In this document: one piece after another, positions 47,530 through 62,436 of the stretch
Layout: every line of letters begins with the position of its first letter
How positions within the stretch are numbered: the first letter of the stretch is position 1
Assembly: GCF_028368935.1 (NCBI RefSeq)
Contig: NZ_JAQNDK010000006.1
Span: 851,501-915,500, forward strand
DNA from: Sorangium aterium
Lineage (GTDB): Bacteria > Myxococcota_A > Polyangia > Polyangiales > Polyangiaceae
DNA length: 64,000 nt
Direction: 5' to 3'
Notes under the pieces: generated by a model
What the model saw: the letters and a program-made list of their open reading frames with translations, nothing else
Database searches by the model: none
Told to the model about the DNA's origin: nothing
Made by a program: the position numbers and the translations under genes

Positions 47530-47783
47530 GGCGAAGGCCACCCGCTCCCCCGGTGGAGAAAGCGCCTCGGTCCTCGTAGGGCGCCATGACCGGTAACCTG
47601 GACAACTGAGCCGATAACGTTGACGCGTTGCGCTATGCGTCCTCGCGTATTCAGCCGCAACGGTCCTGAGTAGCCTTGTCCCATGCGCGGAGGAGACGAC
47701 ACGGAGGCCAGCGCGACGGATGGCGCGCCCGTGCTCGTGGCGGCGGCCGCGATCGGGGCGAGGCGCTGGATCGAGGTGGCGCC

Positions 47784-49172
<1,389 letters not shown>

Positions 49173-54129: not shown

Positions 54130-54941
54130 CGCGAGTCCCCGTTCGCCGCGTGGCGCCGGTGGTGGTGACGATCGTGTGCGCGGTGTACGTCCCGCGCCTC
54201 CTGCCGCAGGCCGCGGCGCTCTCGGAGCGGCTCCTCCCCACGCCGGTCGTCGATACCGTGGGTCCGCTCGTGCGGCTCGCGTGCCTCGCGGTCGCCGCCG
54301 TGTTCGGCCTGCGCAGCGCCGCGCGCCTCGAGCGCGACAACCCGGCGCGCGGCCCGTGGTTCCTCCTCGGCGCCTGGCTCGCGCTCTTCACCCTGGGCCA
54401 GGTCGGGCTCGTGTACTACCCGCTCGTCGCGCGCGCGCCCACGCCGCTGCCGTCGATCGCGGACGCCGCGTTCCTCCTCGGATATGCGCTGTTGATCGCC
54501 GCGTCGGTGCGCTTCGTCTTCGTGTACCGCGCCGCCGGCTTCCCCGTCGGCAGCGCGCGCGAGCACCTCGGCATCGCCGCGGGCGCGGCGGCGGCGATGG
54601 CGATCGTCGGTTATCCCGTGCTCGCCCCGATCGCGCGCGCGCCGGTGCCGCTCGGCGAGCGGCTCATCAACATCGCCTATCCCATCCTCGATCTGATCGC
54701 GCTCGTCCCCGCGCTGGTGATGCTGCGGATCACCCGGGCCTTCCGCGGCGGCAAGGTGTGGGCCATCTGGGGATCGCTGCTCGCGGGCTGCGCGCTCATG
54801 GCCGCGGGAGACATCCTGTTCGCGTTCTTCTCCTCGGCGAATATGACGGCGTTCGGGCCGGGCGTGGACATGATGTTGCTCCTCGGGTATTTCGCCGCGG
54901 CGTGCGGGACGATGCTGCAATACGAGACGATCACCGACTGA
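54126..54941 (+). CDS. Eight-helix membrane protein resembling sensor module of GGDEF proteins, no output domain
   Basis: 271 aa. Eight hydrophobic helices: VAPVVVTIVCAVYVPRLL through MMLLLGYFAAACGTML. The segment PTPLPSIADAAFLLGYALLI is the typical loop-helix of the 7TM-type N-terminal sensor found before GGDEF/EAL or kinase domains. Here the protein ends right after the last helix (QYETITD), so there is no catalytic domain. It may be a stand-alone sensor working with the coupled small protein, or a truncated gene. Located in the inner membrane. Confidence 0.72.
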   Translation: MTRVPVRRVAPVVVTIVCAVYVPRLLPQAAALSERLLPTPVVDTVGPLVRLACLAVAAVFGLRSAARLERDNPARGPWFLLGAWLALFTLGQVGLVYYPLVARAPTPLPSIADAAFLLGYALLIAASVRFVFVYRAAGFPVGSAREHLGIAAGAAAAMAIVGYPVLAPIARAPVPLGERLINIAYPILDLIALVPALVMLRITRAFRGGKVWAIWGSLLAGCALMAAGDILFAFFSSANMTAFGPGVDMMLLLGYFAAACGTMLQYETITD

Positions 54942-55005: not shown

Positions 55006-55105
55006 GCGCGATGTCACGGTGAGAGCGTGACGTCGGGTGTGACATGTCACGCCCCCGGCCGTGACATGTCACGCCGCTGTCGCGGTCGGGGGTGTGACAT
55101 GTCAC
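55006..55105. promoter_or_regulatory. Helically phased array of GTGACATGTCAC operators
   Basis: Three perfect 12-bp palindromes GTGACATGTCAC lie at 55039-55050, 55061-55072 and 55094-55105. Starts differ by 22 and 33 bases, multiples of 11. A degenerate fourth site with an intact right half, GCGCGATGTCAC, is at 55006-55017, again 33 bases away. The array is 250-350 bp upstream of the cupin-methyltransferase pair. Binding of a dimeric regulator on one face of the helix is likely. Confidence 0.7.
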
Positions 55106-55259
55106 GGCGGCTCGCCGGGCGGAGACGTCGACCCGCTGGCCTGGCGCGCGCCGCGGCTCGCCCAGTTCGGCCGGATTTGCCGCATCGGTACGCTTTCGCT
55201 GCCCCGATCAACGTCACGCTGGCGAGGGCGCGCCTGGCGGCATGCGCGTTGCAAAGTCA

Positions 55260-55295
55260 CTCGATGACTCGATGGCTCGATGACTCGATGGCTCG
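55260..55295. repeat. 8-bp tandem repeat (CTCGATGA/CTCGATGG)
   Basis: CTCGATGA and CTCGATGG alternate four times from 55260 and end in CTCG. The array lies 57 bp before the cupin gene. Copy number could vary by slippage and change the spacing of the leader. Confidence 0.75.
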
Positions 55296-55351: not shown

Positions 55352-55792
55352 ATGATGTCTGCGCCGATACCGATGACGACAATGAATCTCCTCACGAGGT
55401 ACCTCTCTGTCGAAGAGCCGATCGACGGGGCGCTCCTCCGCGCCAACGTGCCGAGCCCGCTGTCCTCTGTCGCGTTTCATGAGGACGTCGAGTGCATCCG
55501 CAGGTCGTTCGCCGCGGGGTTCCCGGTTCACCTGGCGATCCACCGGGTGGACAGCGCCGAGGCGGCGCGCCGGGACTACACGGCGCTGCACACCCACGAC
55601 GGCCCGGAGATCAACGTGATCCTCCCTGATCCCACGGGCCTCGAGTACCGCATCGAGCTCGGTTCCCGCGTCCACCACGTCACCGAGAGCACGAGCATCT
55701 GGATCCCGCCGGGCGTCCCGCACTCCGCGAACGTGGTCCGGGGCTCTGGCTACCTCATCGCCGTGCGCTTCGATGACGGGGGTGCGAGATGA
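55352..55792 (+). CDS. Cupin-domain protein
   Basis: 146 aa from ATG 55352 with GGAGCGGAGCG before it. A single cupin barrel: motif 1 TALHTHDGPEINVIL (two His and Glu, metal ligands), and motif 2 WIPPGVPHSANVV with the third His. All usual metal ligands are present. Small single-domain cupins act as isomerases, dioxygenases or effector-binding proteins; this one is not identifiable further. It is translationally coupled (ATGA) to a methyltransferase, so the two may modify one metabolite. Probably regulated through the palindrome array upstream. Confidence 0.82.
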   Translation: MMSAPIPMTTMNLLTRYLSVEEPIDGALLRANVPSPLSSVAFHEDVECIRRSFAAGFPVHLAIHRVDSAEAARRDYTALHTHDGPEINVILPDPTGLEYRIELGSRVHHVTESTSIWIPPGVPHSANVVRGSGYLIAVRFDDGGAR

Positions 55793-56622
55793 GACGTGAC
55801 CTTCCTCGGAACCTCGACAGGGACGCCGGCGTGAGGGGGCCCGCCGTGGCCGCGTCGAGCCCCGCGCAGGCCTACCGGAATGCGAGCCTCTGGCAGAGGG
55901 GGCGCGGCCAGCGCCTCATCGCGTTCGCCGGCGTGAGGCCGGGCGAGCTCGTGCTCGACCTCGGCTGCGGCACCGGCGGCCTCACGCGGCAGCTCGCCGA
56001 GCTCGTGGGCCCCGACGGGCGCGTCCTGGGGATCGATCCGGACGAGGCGCGGATCGAGCTCGCCCGGCGCACCGCAGGGGCGCCCAACCTGGAGTTCCAG
56101 GTGGCGGCGGCCGAGACCCTCGGCGAGGTCGCCCGGAACCGCCCCTTCGATCTCGTCTTCTCGAACTTCGTGTTCCACTGGATCCGCGACAAGCGAGCGG
56201 TCCTCCGCCTCATGCGCGACCTGCTCCGCCCCGCGGGGCGCATCCTCGTCCAGTGCGTCTCGTCGCTCCCTGCGCTCGTCGGGGAGCTCTCGCGGCTCGC
56301 CGACCCTTCGGGGGAGCGGATCCTGCGGGACTTCGCCTTCGAGGAGGCCGCGGCGCTCGCGCACCACGTCGAGGGCGCCGGGCTGCAGCTGCTCCGCCTG
56401 GAGGAGCAGCATGGAACTCACGTGTATCCGACGCTCGACGCGCTGCTGAGGTGGTGGCAGGCGACGACCCACGACCGGTTCGACCCGCGGACCGTCGAGC
56501 CCGCGGCGCTCTCGCGGTTCGCCGAGCAGCACGGCGACGGCGGCGCGTTCCGGGTGCGCGAGACGTTCTGCTGGTTCGAGGCGCGGCTCGCCCCGGCGCA
56601 CTCGTGGGGACGCGGCGGCTGA
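55789..56622 (+). CDS. SAM-dependent methyltransferase (trans-aconitate/UbiE-like)
   Basis: 277 aa. Motif I LVLDLGCGTGGLTRQLAELV, acidic VLGIDPDEARIELA, then PFDLVFSNFVFHWIRD (motif IV) and LLRPAGRILVQCVS. The FHW element after motif IV is common in trans-aconitate methyltransferase-like and small-molecule O-methyltransferases. The C-terminal cap (residues 165-260) is rich in helices and would select the substrate. It is soluble, with start overlapping the cupin stop. Substrate unknown. Confidence 0.85.
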   Translation: MRRDLPRNLDRDAGVRGPAVAASSPAQAYRNASLWQRGRGQRLIAFAGVRPGELVLDLGCGTGGLTRQLAELVGPDGRVLGIDPDEARIELARRTAGAPNLEFQVAAAETLGEVARNRPFDLVFSNFVFHWIRDKRAVLRLMRDLLRPAGRILVQCVSSLPALVGELSRLADPSGERILRDFAFEEAAALAHHVEGAGLQLLRLEEQHGTHVYPTLDALLRWWQATTHDRFDPRTVEPAALSRFAEQHGDGGAFRVRETFCWFEARLAPAHSWGRGG

Positions 56623-56768: not shown

Positions 56769-58775
56769 ATGTCGATCTTCGAGCTCTCGTTTCAGTCCGG
56801 GGAGGCCTCGCTCTCCGTGCGCCGTGTCGTGATCCAGGAGGCCGTCTCCGAGCTCTTCACCGTCTCGGTGTGGGCCCGGTCCAGGCTCTCGGATCTCGAG
56901 CTGGAGCCGCTCGTCGGCCAGAGCGCGTCGCTCCAGATCCAGCCCGACCCCGAGCACCTCCACTGGCTGAGCAGCAGGCTCTGGCAGGGCGTGTGCAGCC
57001 ACGTGGAGCAGGTGCAGGCCGAGCCGACGGGGCTCTCGACATACTACCTCCGCATCGTGCCGCGCCTCTGGCTGCTCACCCAGCGCCGCGGACACCGCAT
57101 CTACCAGCACCTCTCCATCCCCGACATCGTCGACGCGCTCCTCGGCGAGTGGGCGATCGAGCCGGCGTGGAAGATCGATCGCGGCGCGTATCCAAGGCTC
57201 GAGTACAAGGTCCAGCACGGCGAGAGCGACCACGCCTTTCTATGCCGCCTCCTCGAAGAGGCAGGCATCGCCTACACCTTCCCGGACAGCGGGAAGGACG
57301 CCAAGCTCACCCTGAGCGACAAGCTCGAGTCGGAGCCGCTGCGGCCGGGGCCGCCGCTGCCTTACATCGACAACCCCCTCGAGACCTCGGAGCGCGAGTT
57401 CGTCACCAGGGTGCGGTTCAGCCACGAGGTCCGGCCCGGCGCGAGCACGATCCGCGGCCACGACTTCCGCAAACCCTCGTTCGCGCTCACCGGCGAGGCG
57501 CCCCCGGCGCCCGCGCCCGAGGCGAAGTACGAGCAGTACAGCTACGAGCCCGGCGCGTTCCTCGCCGCGAGCGCCGGGGGCGGCGCGCCCGTCGGCGACG
57601 CCAAGGGCGTTTACCGCCACGACCCGAAGCACGGAGCCGATCTGTCGACACGGGTCCTCGCGGCGATGCGCGCCGACAAGCGCGGCGTGCTCTTCGAAGC
57701 CAACGTGATCGACCTCTACCCGGGCCGGGTCTTCTCCGTCGATCAGCACCCGCACCCGGAGGTGGGAAAAGGGCCGCTGATGGTGGCCGAGCTCGAGATC
57801 GCGGCCTCGCTCGACGAGCCGTGGAGCGTGCACGGGCGCGCGCTCTTCGCCGATTCCAAGGTCCCGTACCGGCCGGCGCGCAAGACGCCCAGGCCGGTCG
57901 CGCCCGGGCTGCAGAGCGCGACCGTGGTGGGGCCGCCGGGCGCCGAGATCCACACCGACGAGCTCGGGCGGGTGCGCGTGCAGTTTCCGTGGGATCGCGA
58001 GGGCAAGCTCGACGACAACAGCTCGTGCTGGATGCGCGTGAGCCAGGGCTGGGCGGGCGCCGGCTTCGGGATGTTCATGCTCCCCCGCGTCGGCCAGGAG
58101 GTGCTCGTGGCCTTCCTCGACGGCGATCCCGATCTCCCCATCGTGGCCGGGCGCGCCTTCAACGGCCGTGAGCTCGTGCCGTACAAGCTGCCTGATCACA
58201 AGACGGTGAGCACCTGGAAGAGCAGCTCGTCGCCCGGCGGCGCGGGCTACAACGAGATCAAGTTCGAGGACCAGGCGGGCCAGGAGCTCGTCTACATGCA
58301 GGCGCAGCGCGACAGGAACCAGCTCGTCAAGCGCGATGAGGTCGAGCGCACCGGGCGCCACAAGCGGAGCACCGTGGGAGGCGACGAGCACGTGGTCGTG
58401 AAGGGCACACGGAAACAGCTCGTCCACGGGGGCGACCACGTGCACGTGAAGCTGGATCAGCGACAGGCCGTCGACGGCTCCGTGTCGCTCACGGTCGCCG
58501 TGAACCGGGACGAGCACGTGGGCGCGAACCACGCGCTCGAGGCCGGCGGGCAGCTCCACATCAAGGCGGGCGCGACCCTGGTGCTCGAGGCGGGCCAGCG
58601 GCTCACCATCAAGGGGCCTGGAGGCTTCATCGACATCCACCCGGGGGGCGTCGACATCGTGGGAACTGTCGTCAACATCAACAGCGGCGGCGCGCCGGGC
58701 GCCGGCCAGGGCGCGAACCCGGCGGCGCCGCTCCAGGCCGAAGAGGCGCACCCCAAGGACACGCCGTCTCCCTGA
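56769..58775 (+). CDS. vgrG: Type VI secretion spike protein VgrG
   Basis: 668 aa. The N-terminal gp27-like region (about 1-330) opens FELSFQSGEASLSVRRVVIQ and includes HGESDHAFLCRLLEEAGIAY, a hallmark of VgrG. The gp5-like OB-fold (about 385-470) has DELGRVRVQFPWDREGK, SCWMRVSQGWAGAGFGMFML and PRVGQEVLVAFLDGDPD. The C-terminal beta-helix needle follows, with GGYNEI-type (GGAGYNEIKFEDQAG) and short repeats. No extra effector domain is attached to the C-terminus, which ends in low-complexity PLQAEEAHPKDTPSP. It trimerises at the tip of the Hcp tube and carries PAAR and cargo. The other T6SS structural genes are not in this window. Confidence 0.95.
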   Translation: MSIFELSFQSGEASLSVRRVVIQEAVSELFTVSVWARSRLSDLELEPLVGQSASLQIQPDPEHLHWLSSRLWQGVCSHVEQVQAEPTGLSTYYLRIVPRLWLLTQRRGHRIYQHLSIPDIVDALLGEWAIEPAWKIDRGAYPRLEYKVQHGESDHAFLCRLLEEAGIAYTFPDSGKDAKLTLSDKLESEPLRPGPPLPYIDNPLETSEREFVTRVRFSHEVRPGASTIRGHDFRKPSFALTGEAPPAPAPEAKYEQYSYEPGAFLAASAGGGAPVGDAKGVYRHDPKHGADLSTRVLAAMRADKRGVLFEANVIDLYPGRVFSVDQHPHPEVGKGPLMVAELEIAASLDEPWSVHGRALFADSKVPYRPARKTPRPVAPGLQSATVVGPPGAEIHTDELGRVRVQFPWDREGKLDDNSSCWMRVSQGWAGAGFGMFMLPRVGQEVLVAFLDGDPDLPIVAGRAFNGRELVPYKLPDHKTVSTWKSSSSPGGAGYNEIKFEDQAGQELVYMQAQRDRNQLVKRDEVERTGRHKRSTVGGDEHVVVKGTRKQLVHGGDHVHVKLDQRQAVDGSVSLTVAVNRDEHVGANHALEAGGQLHIKAGATLVLEAGQRLTIKGPGGFIDIHPGGVDIVGTVVNINSGGAPGAGQGANPAAPLQAEEAHPKDTPSP

Positions 58776-58794
58776 GACGAGGAGGAGCGAGATC

Positions 58795-59151
58795 ATGCCC
58801 GCCGCCGCGCGCCTCACCGATCTGCACACCTGCCAGACGCACCCTGGGCCCACGCCGATCGTCACGTCGGCCAGGACGGTGAACATCGGCTTCCAGCCCG
58901 CGGCGCGGGTCGGCGATCGCGCCGCGTGCCCGGCCAGCGCCGCGATCGTCGAGGGCTCGGCGACCGTGTTCATCGAGGGCGCCATGGCCGCGCGGCTCGG
59001 CGACGAGACGGCGCCGAAGGGCGCGATCGTGACCGGGTGTCCGACGGTGAACATCGGCTCGACCCCCGAGATCGACGCATTGCTCGCCGCGTCCGCGTCG
59101 GGGACTCCATTCCTCGATTGCGAGAGCTGCCGGATGGGCGGCGCCGGGTGA
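58795..59151 (+). CDS. PAAR-like T6SS tip protein
   Basis: 118 aa from ATG 58795, with a strong GAGGAGGAGCGAG site. Repeated short beta strands with Pro and Gly (AARLTDLHTCQTHPGPTPIV, ARVGDRAACPASAAIVEGSA, AARLGDETAPKGAIVTGCPT) give the cone-shaped PAAR fold that sharpens VgrG. Cys and His residues (HTCQTH, RAAC, VTGC) can form the tip metal site. The C-terminus adds FLDCESCRMGG with no toxin domain. It is coupled to the next gene by GTGA. Confidence 0.88.
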   Translation: MPAAARLTDLHTCQTHPGPTPIVTSARTVNIGFQPAARVGDRAACPASAAIVEGSATVFIEGAMAARLGDETAPKGAIVTGCPTVNIGSTPEIDALLAASASGTPFLDCESCRMGGAG

Positions 59152-59990
59152 AGGCGCTGCTCCACGTGACATCAGGGCTGCTCGCCGGGCGGCGCGTGCG
59201 CCTCCAGGCCGGCGAGGCGCTGCGCGTGGGGCGCCTCGGGCGGGCCGAGCTCGTGATCTCGCAGGACGAGCAGATGGCGCCTGTGCACTTCGAGGCGGCG
59301 TGGGACGGCGCCGTCTGTCGGCTCCTCGATCGGAGCCGCCGGGGGACGCTGGTCGACGGCAAGGCGGTCGCCGAGGCCGCGATCGGCGACGGCGCCCTCG
59401 TCGTCGCGGGGCAAACCCACTTCCTGCTGCGGCTCGTGCCCGACGATCAGGGCGCCGATCTCCCGCCCGCGCCGCCGCGCCCGCCGCCGTCACGTGAGCT
59501 GCTCGCCGCGCGGGCCGCCGCGCTCGCGGCGCTGCAGAGCGAGCCGGAGCCGCTCTTCGCCCTCCTCGACGCCGCCCGCGACCGGCGCATCCTCACGCTG
59601 CTGCGCGCCTGCGAGGAGGAGAATCGCTCGCTCTTCGATGGGGTCGCGGGCGAGGCGATGGCCCGGGCGGCGCCGCACCTCGTGCGGATCGAGAAGGGGT
59701 CGGCGCTCTTGCCGGTGCTGGTGAACGAGGGGTGGGGCGAGAGCTGGGGAGTCTACCTGACCGGGCGGAGGCCGCTCCGAGAAGTGCGGCAGAGATTGCG
59801 GCGGTCGCTGATCGTGAGGGATGAAGAGACGGGGAAGAGGCTCTATTTCCGCTTCTACGATCCGCGGGTGCTGCGGTCGTTCCTGCCGTCGTGCTCTGTG
59901 AGGCAGCGGAGCGAGATCGTGGGGACGGAGATCGGCGGATTCCTCGTCGAGGGCGAGGCGGGCGAGGTGCTGCGGCTCGGGTGCGGCTGA
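59148..59990 (+). CDS. FHA - DUF4123 adaptor protein of T6SS
   Basis: 280 aa from GTG 59148. Residues 1-95 look like a forkhead-associated domain (GRRVRLQAGEALRVGRLGRA..., a VGR turn), although the S-x-x-H loop is PVHFEA, so phosphopeptide binding is uncertain. Residues about 120-270 are DUF4123: LFALLDAARDRRILTLLRAC, GWGESWGVYLTGRRPLREV, YFRFYDPRVLRSFLPSCS. DUF4123 proteins are chaperones that load effectors on VgrG. Usually an effector gene follows; here the gene ends the module with a hairpin (59991) and a convergent gene. Confidence 0.88.
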   Translation: MKALLHVTSGLLAGRRVRLQAGEALRVGRLGRAELVISQDEQMAPVHFEAAWDGAVCRLLDRSRRGTLVDGKAVAEAAIGDGALVVAGQTHFLLRLVPDDQGADLPPAPPRPPPSRELLAARAAALAALQSEPEPLFALLDAARDRRILTLLRACEEENRSLFDGVAGEAMARAAPHLVRIEKGSALLPVLVNEGWGESWGVYLTGRRPLREVRQRLRRSLIVRDEETGKRLYFRFYDPRVLRSFLPSCSVRQRSEIVGTEIGGFLVEGEAGEVLRLGCG

Positions 59991-60012
59991 CGGCGCTGGG
60001 CGCCGAGCGCCG
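59991..60012 (+). terminator. Hairpin between convergent T6SS genes
   Basis: CGGCGCT-GGGCGCCG-AGCGCCG begins right after the DUF4123 stop codon: 7-bp stem, 8-base loop, no T-tract. It may serve both this operon and, on the other strand, the DUF2169 gene ending at 60079. Confidence 0.45.
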
Positions 60013-60078
60013 AGGACCTCCGCCATCGCGGGCCGCGAACGGGCAGGGGGCGTGAGCGCCTCTCCCGCTGTCGTACCC

Positions 60079-62436
60079 TCATGATGCGCGGCCCTGCCGG
60101 ACCTGCACCACCCGCCCGAGCGCGACCGCCTGGAGCGCCACCGGCTCCGCCTCCCGCTCGTCCATCGCCGGGTGCACCGCCGCGATCGCCCGCGCCCGGA
60201 AGCGCGCCGAGAGCGGCAGCGCCTCGGCGATCGAGGCCGGCAGGTAGATCACGAGCGGCTGCGTCTCTCCCGCCACGCGCAAGAGGGCGCGCAGGTGCGG
60301 CCCGCCCAGCACCTTGCGCTTCTGGTAGTGCCGCTGCTCCAGCAGCGCGCGCTCCACCTGCTCGCTCGCGAGCTCCACCCGGCCTCTCTTTCCGTGGGCG
60401 AGCGCCTCGCGGATCCTCCCGCACAGCGCTGCGGCCACGGCGGGCGCGGTCGAGACGCCCGGCGTGGCGAGGAATCTCTCGGCGGTCTCGAGCGCCGCCG
60501 CGAGCGCGTCGTCGCCGGTCGCGAGCGGCGTCGCGGTGGAGACCAGGGCCTTCAGCGTCTCGACCTCGTCGAAGGACAGCGAGAGCTCGCCCTCGACCAG
60601 CTCGAGCGGCGGCATCGGCATGCCGCGCTTGCCGGCGGCGCGCGCGAGCGCCCCGTGCACGCCCGCGACGTCGGTGGCCGCGCCGCGATCGAGGATCTCG
60701 AAGACCTGCGCCCGATCCTCGATCTCGGCGGGCTCGTCGGAGAGGGCCGGATCGTCGGCCTCCGGATCGAGGGGCTCGTCCTCCATCGCGTCGAGCAGGC
60801 GCTGCCAGGCCGGCTTGCGGACGATGCGCGGCACGCTCTTCCGATCGAACCAGACGAGCGTCAGCGCGTCCCGCTGCGCCGCCGCCGGCGCGAACGCGGC
60901 GCTCGAGTCCGCCGCCGCGCCCGCACCCGCGAACATCGCGCCGATGGTCTGCGGCGCCGCCGGCGCGTGCGGGATCATGCCTGCGGCGCCCGACCCGGGC
61001 TGCGGAGCGCCGGCCGCCCAGGGGCTCACCGGCTCGCCGGGCGAGGCCTTGGCGATCGGCGGGGCAGGGATCGGAGAGGGGGTGTTCGGAGGAGGGTTGT
61101 TCGAAGGAGGGGTGTTGGATGCGGCGGCGGGGGGCGGCGCCGAGGACGGGGCGACGAAGGGGAGAGGCACCTTCGTCGCCTCCTCGGTGATGTCGCCGGT
61201 CTCGCCCTCGATCGAGCTCCGCTTCGACCGGAAACGGGGCGGCTCGGCCGGCCGCGGAGCGGGCGCCTCGGGGGGAGGCGGCGCAGGCGGTCCCGCGCGA
61301 AAGGGCATGATCGTCGCCTGCGGCGCGTCGGGCGACTTCGCGTGGATGTCGAGGGTCAACGTCGACGGGCCGAGGGAGGGAGGCTTCACCGTGGGCCCGG
61401 CCGGGCCCACGCGCGGCGGCGGCTGGGGCCCCGGCGCCGAGGGGGTGGCTGCCTCGGCGGGCGCCTGCCTCGCGGGCCGCTCCAGCGAGACGCGGATCTG
61501 CCCTGACTCCTTGGGGCTCGCGAGCGGGAGCTGGCCTCGCCAGGTCAGCGTGCAGAGGAGGCGATCGGCGTCGATCACGAGCGTGTCGCAGCGCATGGAG
61601 AGATCGCGCGGCCCGCCGGCGCGGCCGGTGACGGTCGCCCGCGGGCGGACGCCAGGAAGGCTGGTGACGAGGCGCGGGTGGCGGGGATGGAGGTTCTCGA
61701 GCACGATCTGCTCGTCCTCGCGGAGCTGCAGCAGGCGCTGATCGAGCGGAGCGACGTTGAAGAAGGTGCGGTCGAAATCCTCCGGCAGCGGGCTCGAGAG
61801 GAGCGCTCCCGACGACCAGGCCGCCGCGTGTTTGCCGAGCCTGCGGTGCCGCAAAGGCCACGTGGGGCCGATGGGCCCGAAGCCCACCGCCGCGATGGGG
61901 TCGTCCAGGCTGGTCACGACCCGATCCACGGGGAGGAGGTTCGGGACGGCGGCCCTGCCGCGGGCGTCGCGCGCCGCGCGATGGATGCCCGCAGGGTTGT
62001 CCGTGTCCGGCCCGCCCGCGGCGCGCTCGTAGGCGAGCGGCATCGTCGTGAAGTGCGCTCCTTCCAGGAGCTCGCCCTCCTGGGTGAACAGGCGATCGCA
62101 GAACACCTGAATGGGTTTATCGATCTCGCCCACCGCCATCCGCGCGATCAGCGACCGCGCGGGGCTGCCGCCGGGCGCGTGGGCGTGGCCGACGAGGACG
62201 ACATCGGCGCCCTGCTTGAGCGGCGCGAGATCGCTCGCCTCGATCAGGCTGCGCGCGGGGTCGTCGTCCAGGTGCGCGTCGCGCTCGCGGATCGGCTCCT
62301 GCGCGGGCGCGAGCGGCGACTCGCCCGGCGCGAGCGTGAAGGTCGCCTTGCAGACGACGGTGAGCACCCAGGTCAAGGAGCGCACCTGCCAGAGGAGCGA
62401 GGCGACGGGGAGCGGCCCCTCGGAGACGACATCCAT
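60079..62436 (-). CDS. DUF2169-family T6SS-associated protein
   Basis: 785 aa from ATG 62436. The N-terminal 300 residues are DUF2169: WVLTVVCKATFTLAPGESPL, DVVLVGHAHAPGG, FGPIGPTWPLRHRRLGKHA, DFDRTFFNVAPLDQRLLQL. A Pro/Ala-rich disordered linker (about 310-520) follows, then a helical domain of about 250 residues (LTLVWFDRKSVPRIVRKPAW) found in long myxobacterial members. DUF2169 proteins work with VgrG and PAAR genes as effector adaptors or carriers. It is convergent with the VgrG operon, so separately controlled. Predicted cytoplasmic. Confidence 0.88.
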   Translation of the reverse strand: MDVVSEGPLPVASLLWQVRSLTWVLTVVCKATFTLAPGESPLAPAQEPIRERDAHLDDDPARSLIEASDLAPLKQGADVVLVGHAHAPGGSPARSLIARMAVGEIDKPIQVFCDRLFTQEGELLEGAHFTTMPLAYERAAGGPDTDNPAGIHRAARDARGRAAVPNLLPVDRVVTSLDDPIAAVGFGPIGPTWPLRHRRLGKHAAAWSSGALLSSPLPEDFDRTFFNVAPLDQRLLQLREDEQIVLENLHPRHPRLVTSLPGVRPRATVTGRAGGPRDLSMRCDTLVIDADRLLCTLTWRGQLPLASPKESGQIRVSLERPARQAPAEAATPSAPGPQPPPRVGPAGPTVKPPSLGPSTLTLDIHAKSPDAPQATIMPFRAGPPAPPPPEAPAPRPAEPPRFRSKRSSIEGETGDITEEATKVPLPFVAPSSAPPPAAASNTPPSNNPPPNTPSPIPAPPIAKASPGEPVSPWAAGAPQPGSGAAGMIPHAPAAPQTIGAMFAGAGAAADSSAAFAPAAAQRDALTLVWFDRKSVPRIVRKPAWQRLLDAMEDEPLDPEADDPALSDEPAEIEDRAQVFEILDRGAATDVAGVHGALARAAGKRGMPMPPLELVEGELSLSFDEVETLKALVSTATPLATGDDALAAALETAERFLATPGVSTAPAVAAALCGRIREALAHGKRGRVELASEQVERALLEQRHYQKRKVLGGPHLRALLRVAGETQPLVIYLPASIAEALPLSARFRARAIAAVHPAMDEREAEPVALQAVALGRVVQVRQGRAS

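Follow-up and report, generated by a model that had tools for sequence, protein, structure and literature searches.

Palindrome array upstream of a cupin-methyltransferase gene pair in Sorangium aterium: a probable enhancer of a dispersed sigma-54 regulon

The window, by which we mean the whole stretch of 64,000 nucleotides that was analysed, has a base composition of about 70% GC and belongs to the 13.47-Mb genome of Sorangium aterium, which is congeneric with Sorangium cellulosum So0157-2 and with So ceGT47. Between a preceding ORF that ends at 54941 and a cupin gene that starts at 55352, it holds an intergenic array of the palindrome GTGACATGTCAC, followed by a predicted promoter and two coupled genes. 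The features of this region are as follows.

55006 to 55017, no strand: degenerate palindrome GCGCGATGTCAC, three mismatches against GTGACATGTCAC, right half intact
55027 to 55038, no strand: left half-site GTGAC, continued by GTCGGGT (GTGACGTCGGGT), abutting perfect site 1; read from the sequence and the grid across all arrays
55039 to 55050, no strand: perfect palindrome 1, GTGACATGTCAC, from the exact-match search
55061 to 55072, no strand: perfect palindrome 2 (+22), GTGACATGTCAC, from the exact-match search
55094 to 55105, no strand: perfect palindrome 3 (+55), GTGACATGTCAC, from the exact-match search
55150 to 55183, no strand: conserved block GCCGCGGCTCGCCCAGTTCGGCCGGATTTGCCGC between array and promoter, from the three-species alignment
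55238 to 55253, plus strand: predicted sigma-54 promoter CGGCATGCGCGTTGCA, GG at 55239-55240 and GC at 55251-55252, conserved in two congeners
55352 to 55792, plus strand: small cupin protein, first of the pair, with an AraC_binding match below the cut-off; orthologues lie downstream of arrays in two congeners
55789 to 56622, plus strand: class I SAM methyltransferase, overlapping the cupin gene by 4 bp

The exact-match search found GTGACATGTCAC three times in the window (55039, 55061 and 55094) and nowhere else in the 64 kb. The steps between the copies, 22 and then 33, reproduce the positions +0, +22 and +55 given in the initial annotation, which had also called the arrangement too regular for chance. 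That judgement is borne out: 0.01 exact copies are expected in a window of this length, 100 dinucleotide-shuffled versions of the 64 kb never gave three copies, and the array is helically phased. The half-degenerate site that had been placed at -33 is indeed present at 55006. Taken alone it is within chance, with nine matches of at most three mismatches seen against 18.55 expected; the orthologous array of So ceGT47 has a degenerate copy at the equivalent position, GTGAGGTGTCAT, which precedes its first perfect site and aligns with GCGCGATGTCAC. When the degenerate copy and the half-site are counted, the grid of the array reads 21+12, 22 and 33.

Perfect copies of GTGACATGTCAC were counted in six genomes of the genus, labelled G000 (the own genome) to G005, G003 being So ceGT47 and G004 being So0157-2. 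The own genome has 17, So ceGT47 has 19 and So0157-2 has 25, with 0 for the reversed control; G001 has one, G005 none, and G002, the genome of which is incomplete, two. Outside Sorangium the copies were stray ones only, and a scan of 84,980 species returned 31 stretches with two copies within 30 bp, 13 of them in two Sorangium genomes. The perfect copies of the own genome are mostly clustered and make up about eight arrays; the array of the window is one of these, which mark a dispersed regulon. Spacings inside clusters are 21, 22, 23, 33 or 34 bp, with direct abutment at 12 bp in some places, and the 33-bp step can often be resolved into 21+12, the middle site being half decayed. The flanks extend the palindrome to the 14-bp consensus CGTGACATGTCACG, having G at +12 in 61 of 64 sites and C at -1 in 52 of 64. 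Spacers resemble each other inside one array and differ from array to array, as is expected from local tandem duplication. Judged against the genes placed by our own simple codon-based gene caller, which is not a published tool, almost every cluster is intergenic, and the majority have a gene start 100-600 bp downstream. Literature searches for the palindrome returned chance matches in unrelated papers only.

The -24/-12 element downstream of the window array is conserved in the aligned upstream regions of the two congener orthologues, CGGCATGCGCGTTGCA in the window corresponding to CGGCATGTGCCTTGCT and CGGCATGTGCCTTGCC. The same holds for a trypsin-like operon, the aligned upstream regions of which carry the GG-N10-GC elements GGCACGGTCATTGCG, GGTACGGCTTTTGCT and GGTACGGCGCTTGCT in three species. 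For a general survey, promoters were scanned up to 300 bp from each cluster with a hand-made matrix built from the standard consensus (score of at least 10; a score of 11 is attained by 2% of random 300-bp stretches). An outward-facing sigma-54 promoter was found at 24 of 38 clusters and an inward-facing one at 1 of 38 (Fisher p ~1e-8), against 7-8 of 103 ordinary upstream regions. The distance from array edge to -24 box is 65-195 bp in 23 of the 24 promoters, with one outlier at 273. The remaining 14 of the 38 clusters, some of them single sites, have no convincing sigma-54 promoter within 300 bp.

The sigma-54 consensus is TGGCACG-N4-TTGC[T/A], with the pattern GG-N10-GC (PMC9765219). A sigma-54 enhancer has at least two dyad sites, and its usual distance upstream of the promoter is 80-150 bp (PMC7910581). 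Both traits are seen here: a gene-facing -24/-12 promoter lies downstream of the window array, and at least two dyad sites stand at an enhancer-like distance, the last perfect site ending 132 bp before the -24 element. Since the promoter is of the sigma-54 type, the array is most likely the enhancer of an activator, and we consider it very probable that it serves as upstream activating sequence for a sigma-54 enhancer-binding protein. Dimers of such a protein would occupy the palindromes of the array, which have the core GTGACATGTCAC and the consensus CGTGACATGTCACG and share one helical face, and would assemble into an AAA+ ring, which would loop to the RNA polymerase-sigma-54 complex waiting at 55238-55253; ATP use would then open the promoter and allow transcription of the cupin and methyltransferase genes from a start that we infer at about 55263. 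The initial annotation had proposed cooperative expression, possibly under quorum or metabolite control; the idea of cooperative control is supported, with multi-site and presumably cooperative binding, and no evidence of quorum or metabolite control was found.

The conserved block at 55150-55183 is possibly a bending site or the site of a second factor; in the trypsin operon set the corresponding interval also holds a block, TCGGCCG/TTGGCCG. Where transcription is predicted to start, the window carries a tandem repeat of ACTCGATG (4.6 copies, 55259-55295), which is absent from the two orthologous promoters. No Rfam match was found near the array.

Pairs of GTGACATGTCAC with a sigma-54-like promoter also occur in Geomesophilobacter, a Desulfuromonadales MAG and a Ca. 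Brocadia contig; the promoter matches are weaker in a second Brocadia contig and in Desulfatitalea. The Geomesophilobacter pair adjoins an enhancer-binding protein gene and a chemotaxis operon. Related tandem palindromes near sigma-54-like promoters were seen at L182 (2501-2556, GTGACAAGTCAC three times at 22 bp) and L217 (5120-5192, GTGCCATGGCAC twice at 21 bp), and these are possibly the operators of sister activators. In Providencia (L099, L100, L108, L119 and L120) and Streptomyces (L117), GTGACATGTCAC sites stand in pairs or larger groups, 28-33 bp apart. The double sites of Providencia, Streptomyces and a Ruminococcaceae MAG mostly have no good sigma-54 promoter nearby; they probably belong to other regulators and were set aside.

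That the array belongs to the cupin-methyltransferase pair, as first proposed, is supported by its retention beside the pair in each of the three array-rich species, where the proteins are about 80% identical and the left neighbour is not the same. The trypsin-like operon has likewise kept its array in three species, with a changed repeat number, and among the six genus genomes this operon is present solely in the three array-rich ones. Other array-adjacent products include lipoprotein-like small proteins, trypsin-like proteases, RCC1-repeat proteins, a neprosin-family protein, a pectate-lyase-like protein, PhyH and SnoaL-like proteins. Judged by eye for export signals, most members look exported, and the predicted targets appear to be mainly lipoproteins and secreted hydrolases; the same type of array would thus drive a dispersed Sorangium regulon rich in such products. 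The cupin-methyltransferase pair is among the few cytoplasmic-looking members. Control of one biosynthetic pathway, in the sense of the unknown pathway suggested at the outset, is not supported by a regulon of this apparent composition. After the pair, the window codes for a type VI secretion spike (VgrG), a PAAR protein, a possible FHA protein and DUF2169 (56769-62436). The So0157-2 array L047 is also near a VgrG gene, and in the other two species the 9 kb examined around the pair showed no VgrG homologue.

Which protein would bind the arrays was approached through the 76 proteins of the own genome that have a full sigma-54 interaction domain. The HTH segments of 71 enhancer-binding proteins were used in an orthologue search of G003, which has arrays, and G005, which has none, and the resulting candidates were compared across all six genus genomes. 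Only one of the 71, an FHA-AAA+-Fis protein, matched the distribution of the arrays.

G000:C1:1574516-1576048, minus strand: FHA-AAA+(GAFSGA)-Fis candidate activator, domains FHA, Sigma54_activat and HTH_8

Orthologues with 68-70% identity are present in G002, G003 and G004 (two copies in G004), and in G001 and G005 only background FHA matches were found, a species profile that rests on six genomes. The recognition helix GRDR(V/A)QVHRW is common to the genus. Of 183 Polyangiales genomes, 88 have more distant relatives of the FHA part of the protein; six that were examined have the helix GKERMQVHRW or KTNRVQVHRW in place of GRDRVQVHRW, and 17 such genomes that were searched have at most one stray copy of GTGACATGTCAC each. 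Because these Polyangiales have FHA orthologues but lack this palindrome apart from stray copies, assigning the arrays to the FHA protein requires a change of specificity. One of the two So0157-2 paralogues of the FHA protein is preceded, at about 1-2 kb, by a related tandem array that has two copies of GTGCCATGGCAC at 21 bp followed by GTGACACGTCAC and is accompanied by a strong sigma-54 promoter; in the own genome there is no array within about 7 kb of the FHA gene. On this correlation over few genomes, we regard the FHA protein as the likelier activator of the arrays, with moderate confidence. Its FHA domain suggests control by Ser/Thr phosphorylation.

A further question is whether the arrays, if they are sigma-54 enhancers, could serve another of the approximately 76 enhancer-binding proteins. 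This appears possible, if rather doubtful. About 70% of these proteins have HTH matches in the array-less G005, and a universal one could have switched specificity; moreover, the activator beside the Geomesophilobacter palindromes has an HTH closest to receiver-type proteins such as L078 and L079. L078, however, occurs throughout the genus, with 98-100% identity between genomes that have arrays and genomes that do not, and was rejected for this reason. Where the FHA protein is missing, on the other hand, the arrays and the trypsin-like operon are missing too, and the association of the So0157-2 paralogue with a GTGCCATGGCAC/GTGACACGTCAC array also speaks for the FHA protein. Several further candidates were set aside. 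L079 has no clear orthologue in the array-bearing G003, and C3:711988 is present in G001, a genome without arrays. The response-regulator type enhancer-binding protein encoded in the window itself (47672-49169) has HTH matches in array-bearing and array-less genomes alike; with GAVPGA in place of GAFTGA, it is perhaps not a sigma-54 activator. Esi of So0157-2 binds inverted GGGA and not GTGACATGTCAC.

Readings that dispense with sigma-54 were also weighed. Short perfect palindromes at helical spacing would suit many regulators, and the neighbouring cupin is weakly similar to AraC ligand-binding domains, so that one might consider an ordinary one-component repressor or activator, of the TetR, LuxR or a similar type, that works on sigma-70 promoters and may respond to quorum or metabolite signals. 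We think this improbable, because the arrays lie at an enhancer-like distance of 65-195 bp upstream of conserved -24/-12 elements with a strong directional preference, and the cupin has no match to a DNA-binding domain. It is more improbable still that the palindromes are a matS-like or REP-like element of chromosome organisation or repetition with no role at promoters. The half-sites do resemble the MatP site matS, a 13-bp sequence of the form GTGAC-N3-GTCAC that occurs only in the terminus region; the dispersal of the copies and the duplication of spacers inside arrays also favour this reading. However, GTGACATGTCAC is a 12-bp palindrome that is spread chromosome-wide in both complete genomes (for example, from 0.34 to 13.76 Mb of a 14.78-Mb chromosome), and its spacing grid, its retention upstream of orthologous genes and its association with promoters all point away from such an element.

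An enhancer for a sigma-54 activator, as preferred here, has parallels in described systems. At the NorR enhancers of norVW in E. coli several sites in one upstream region load a hexameric sigma-54 activator, and the Sorangium arrays resemble them in having multiple sites within one upstream region. NorR differs in its operator and in its GAF domain, in place of which the Sorangium candidate has FHA; the candidate scores 273.9 against the NorR equivalog, below the cut-off of 476, and is not classed as NorR. The PEP-CTERM box is a dispersed, sometimes repeated motif with a -24/-12 promoter about 60 bp later, found at many single genes for exported proteins, and its activator PrsR was identified by phylogenetic profile (Haft 2006, PMC1569441). 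The likeness to the present case extends to the dispersed upstream motif, the -24/-12 promoter, the exported targets and the profile-derived activator. Unlike the GTGACATGTCAC sites and FHA-domain candidate of Sorangium, that system uses a TTTACA motif and a receiver-domain response regulator with the kinase PrsK, and the candidate falls outside the PrsR model TIGR02915 with 241.5 bits against a cut-off of 502.6. Nla28 of Myxococcus xanthus is an enhancer-binding protein with tandem sites upstream of sigma-54 promoters, made of half-sites CT(C/G)CG(C/G)AG at variable spacing (PMC9765219), and some sites of this type drive natural-product genes (PMC7910581). It shares with the system proposed here its myxobacterial origin and the use of several tandem sites ahead of sigma-54 promoters, and differs in that the Sorangium sites are perfect palindromes at 21, 22 or 33 bp; Nla28 half-sites are lacking in the sequence of the window array. 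To our knowledge, none of these systems (PrsR, Nla28 and NorR) shares the GTGACATGTCAC operator, and literature searches found no operator assigned to any of the approximately 76 enhancer-binding proteins of this genome. The system is thus of a known kind, with an operator and a regulon that apparently have not been described.

In summary, the outcome is an operator with about 38 array loci across five genomes, together with a single named candidate for the activator. With their helical grid and duplicated spacers, the arrays form a natural series of site numbers and spacings in which multi-site loading of an AAA+ activator can be related to promoter output. Tentatively, and going beyond the single locus, one may picture a secretome regulon that is specific to Sorangium and governed by a sigma-54 activator of the FHA type. 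Arrays would lengthen and shorten through local tandem duplication of site-plus-spacer units, and the palindrome and the recognition helix would have changed together between genera. If so, each genus of the Polyangiales would use its own palindrome.
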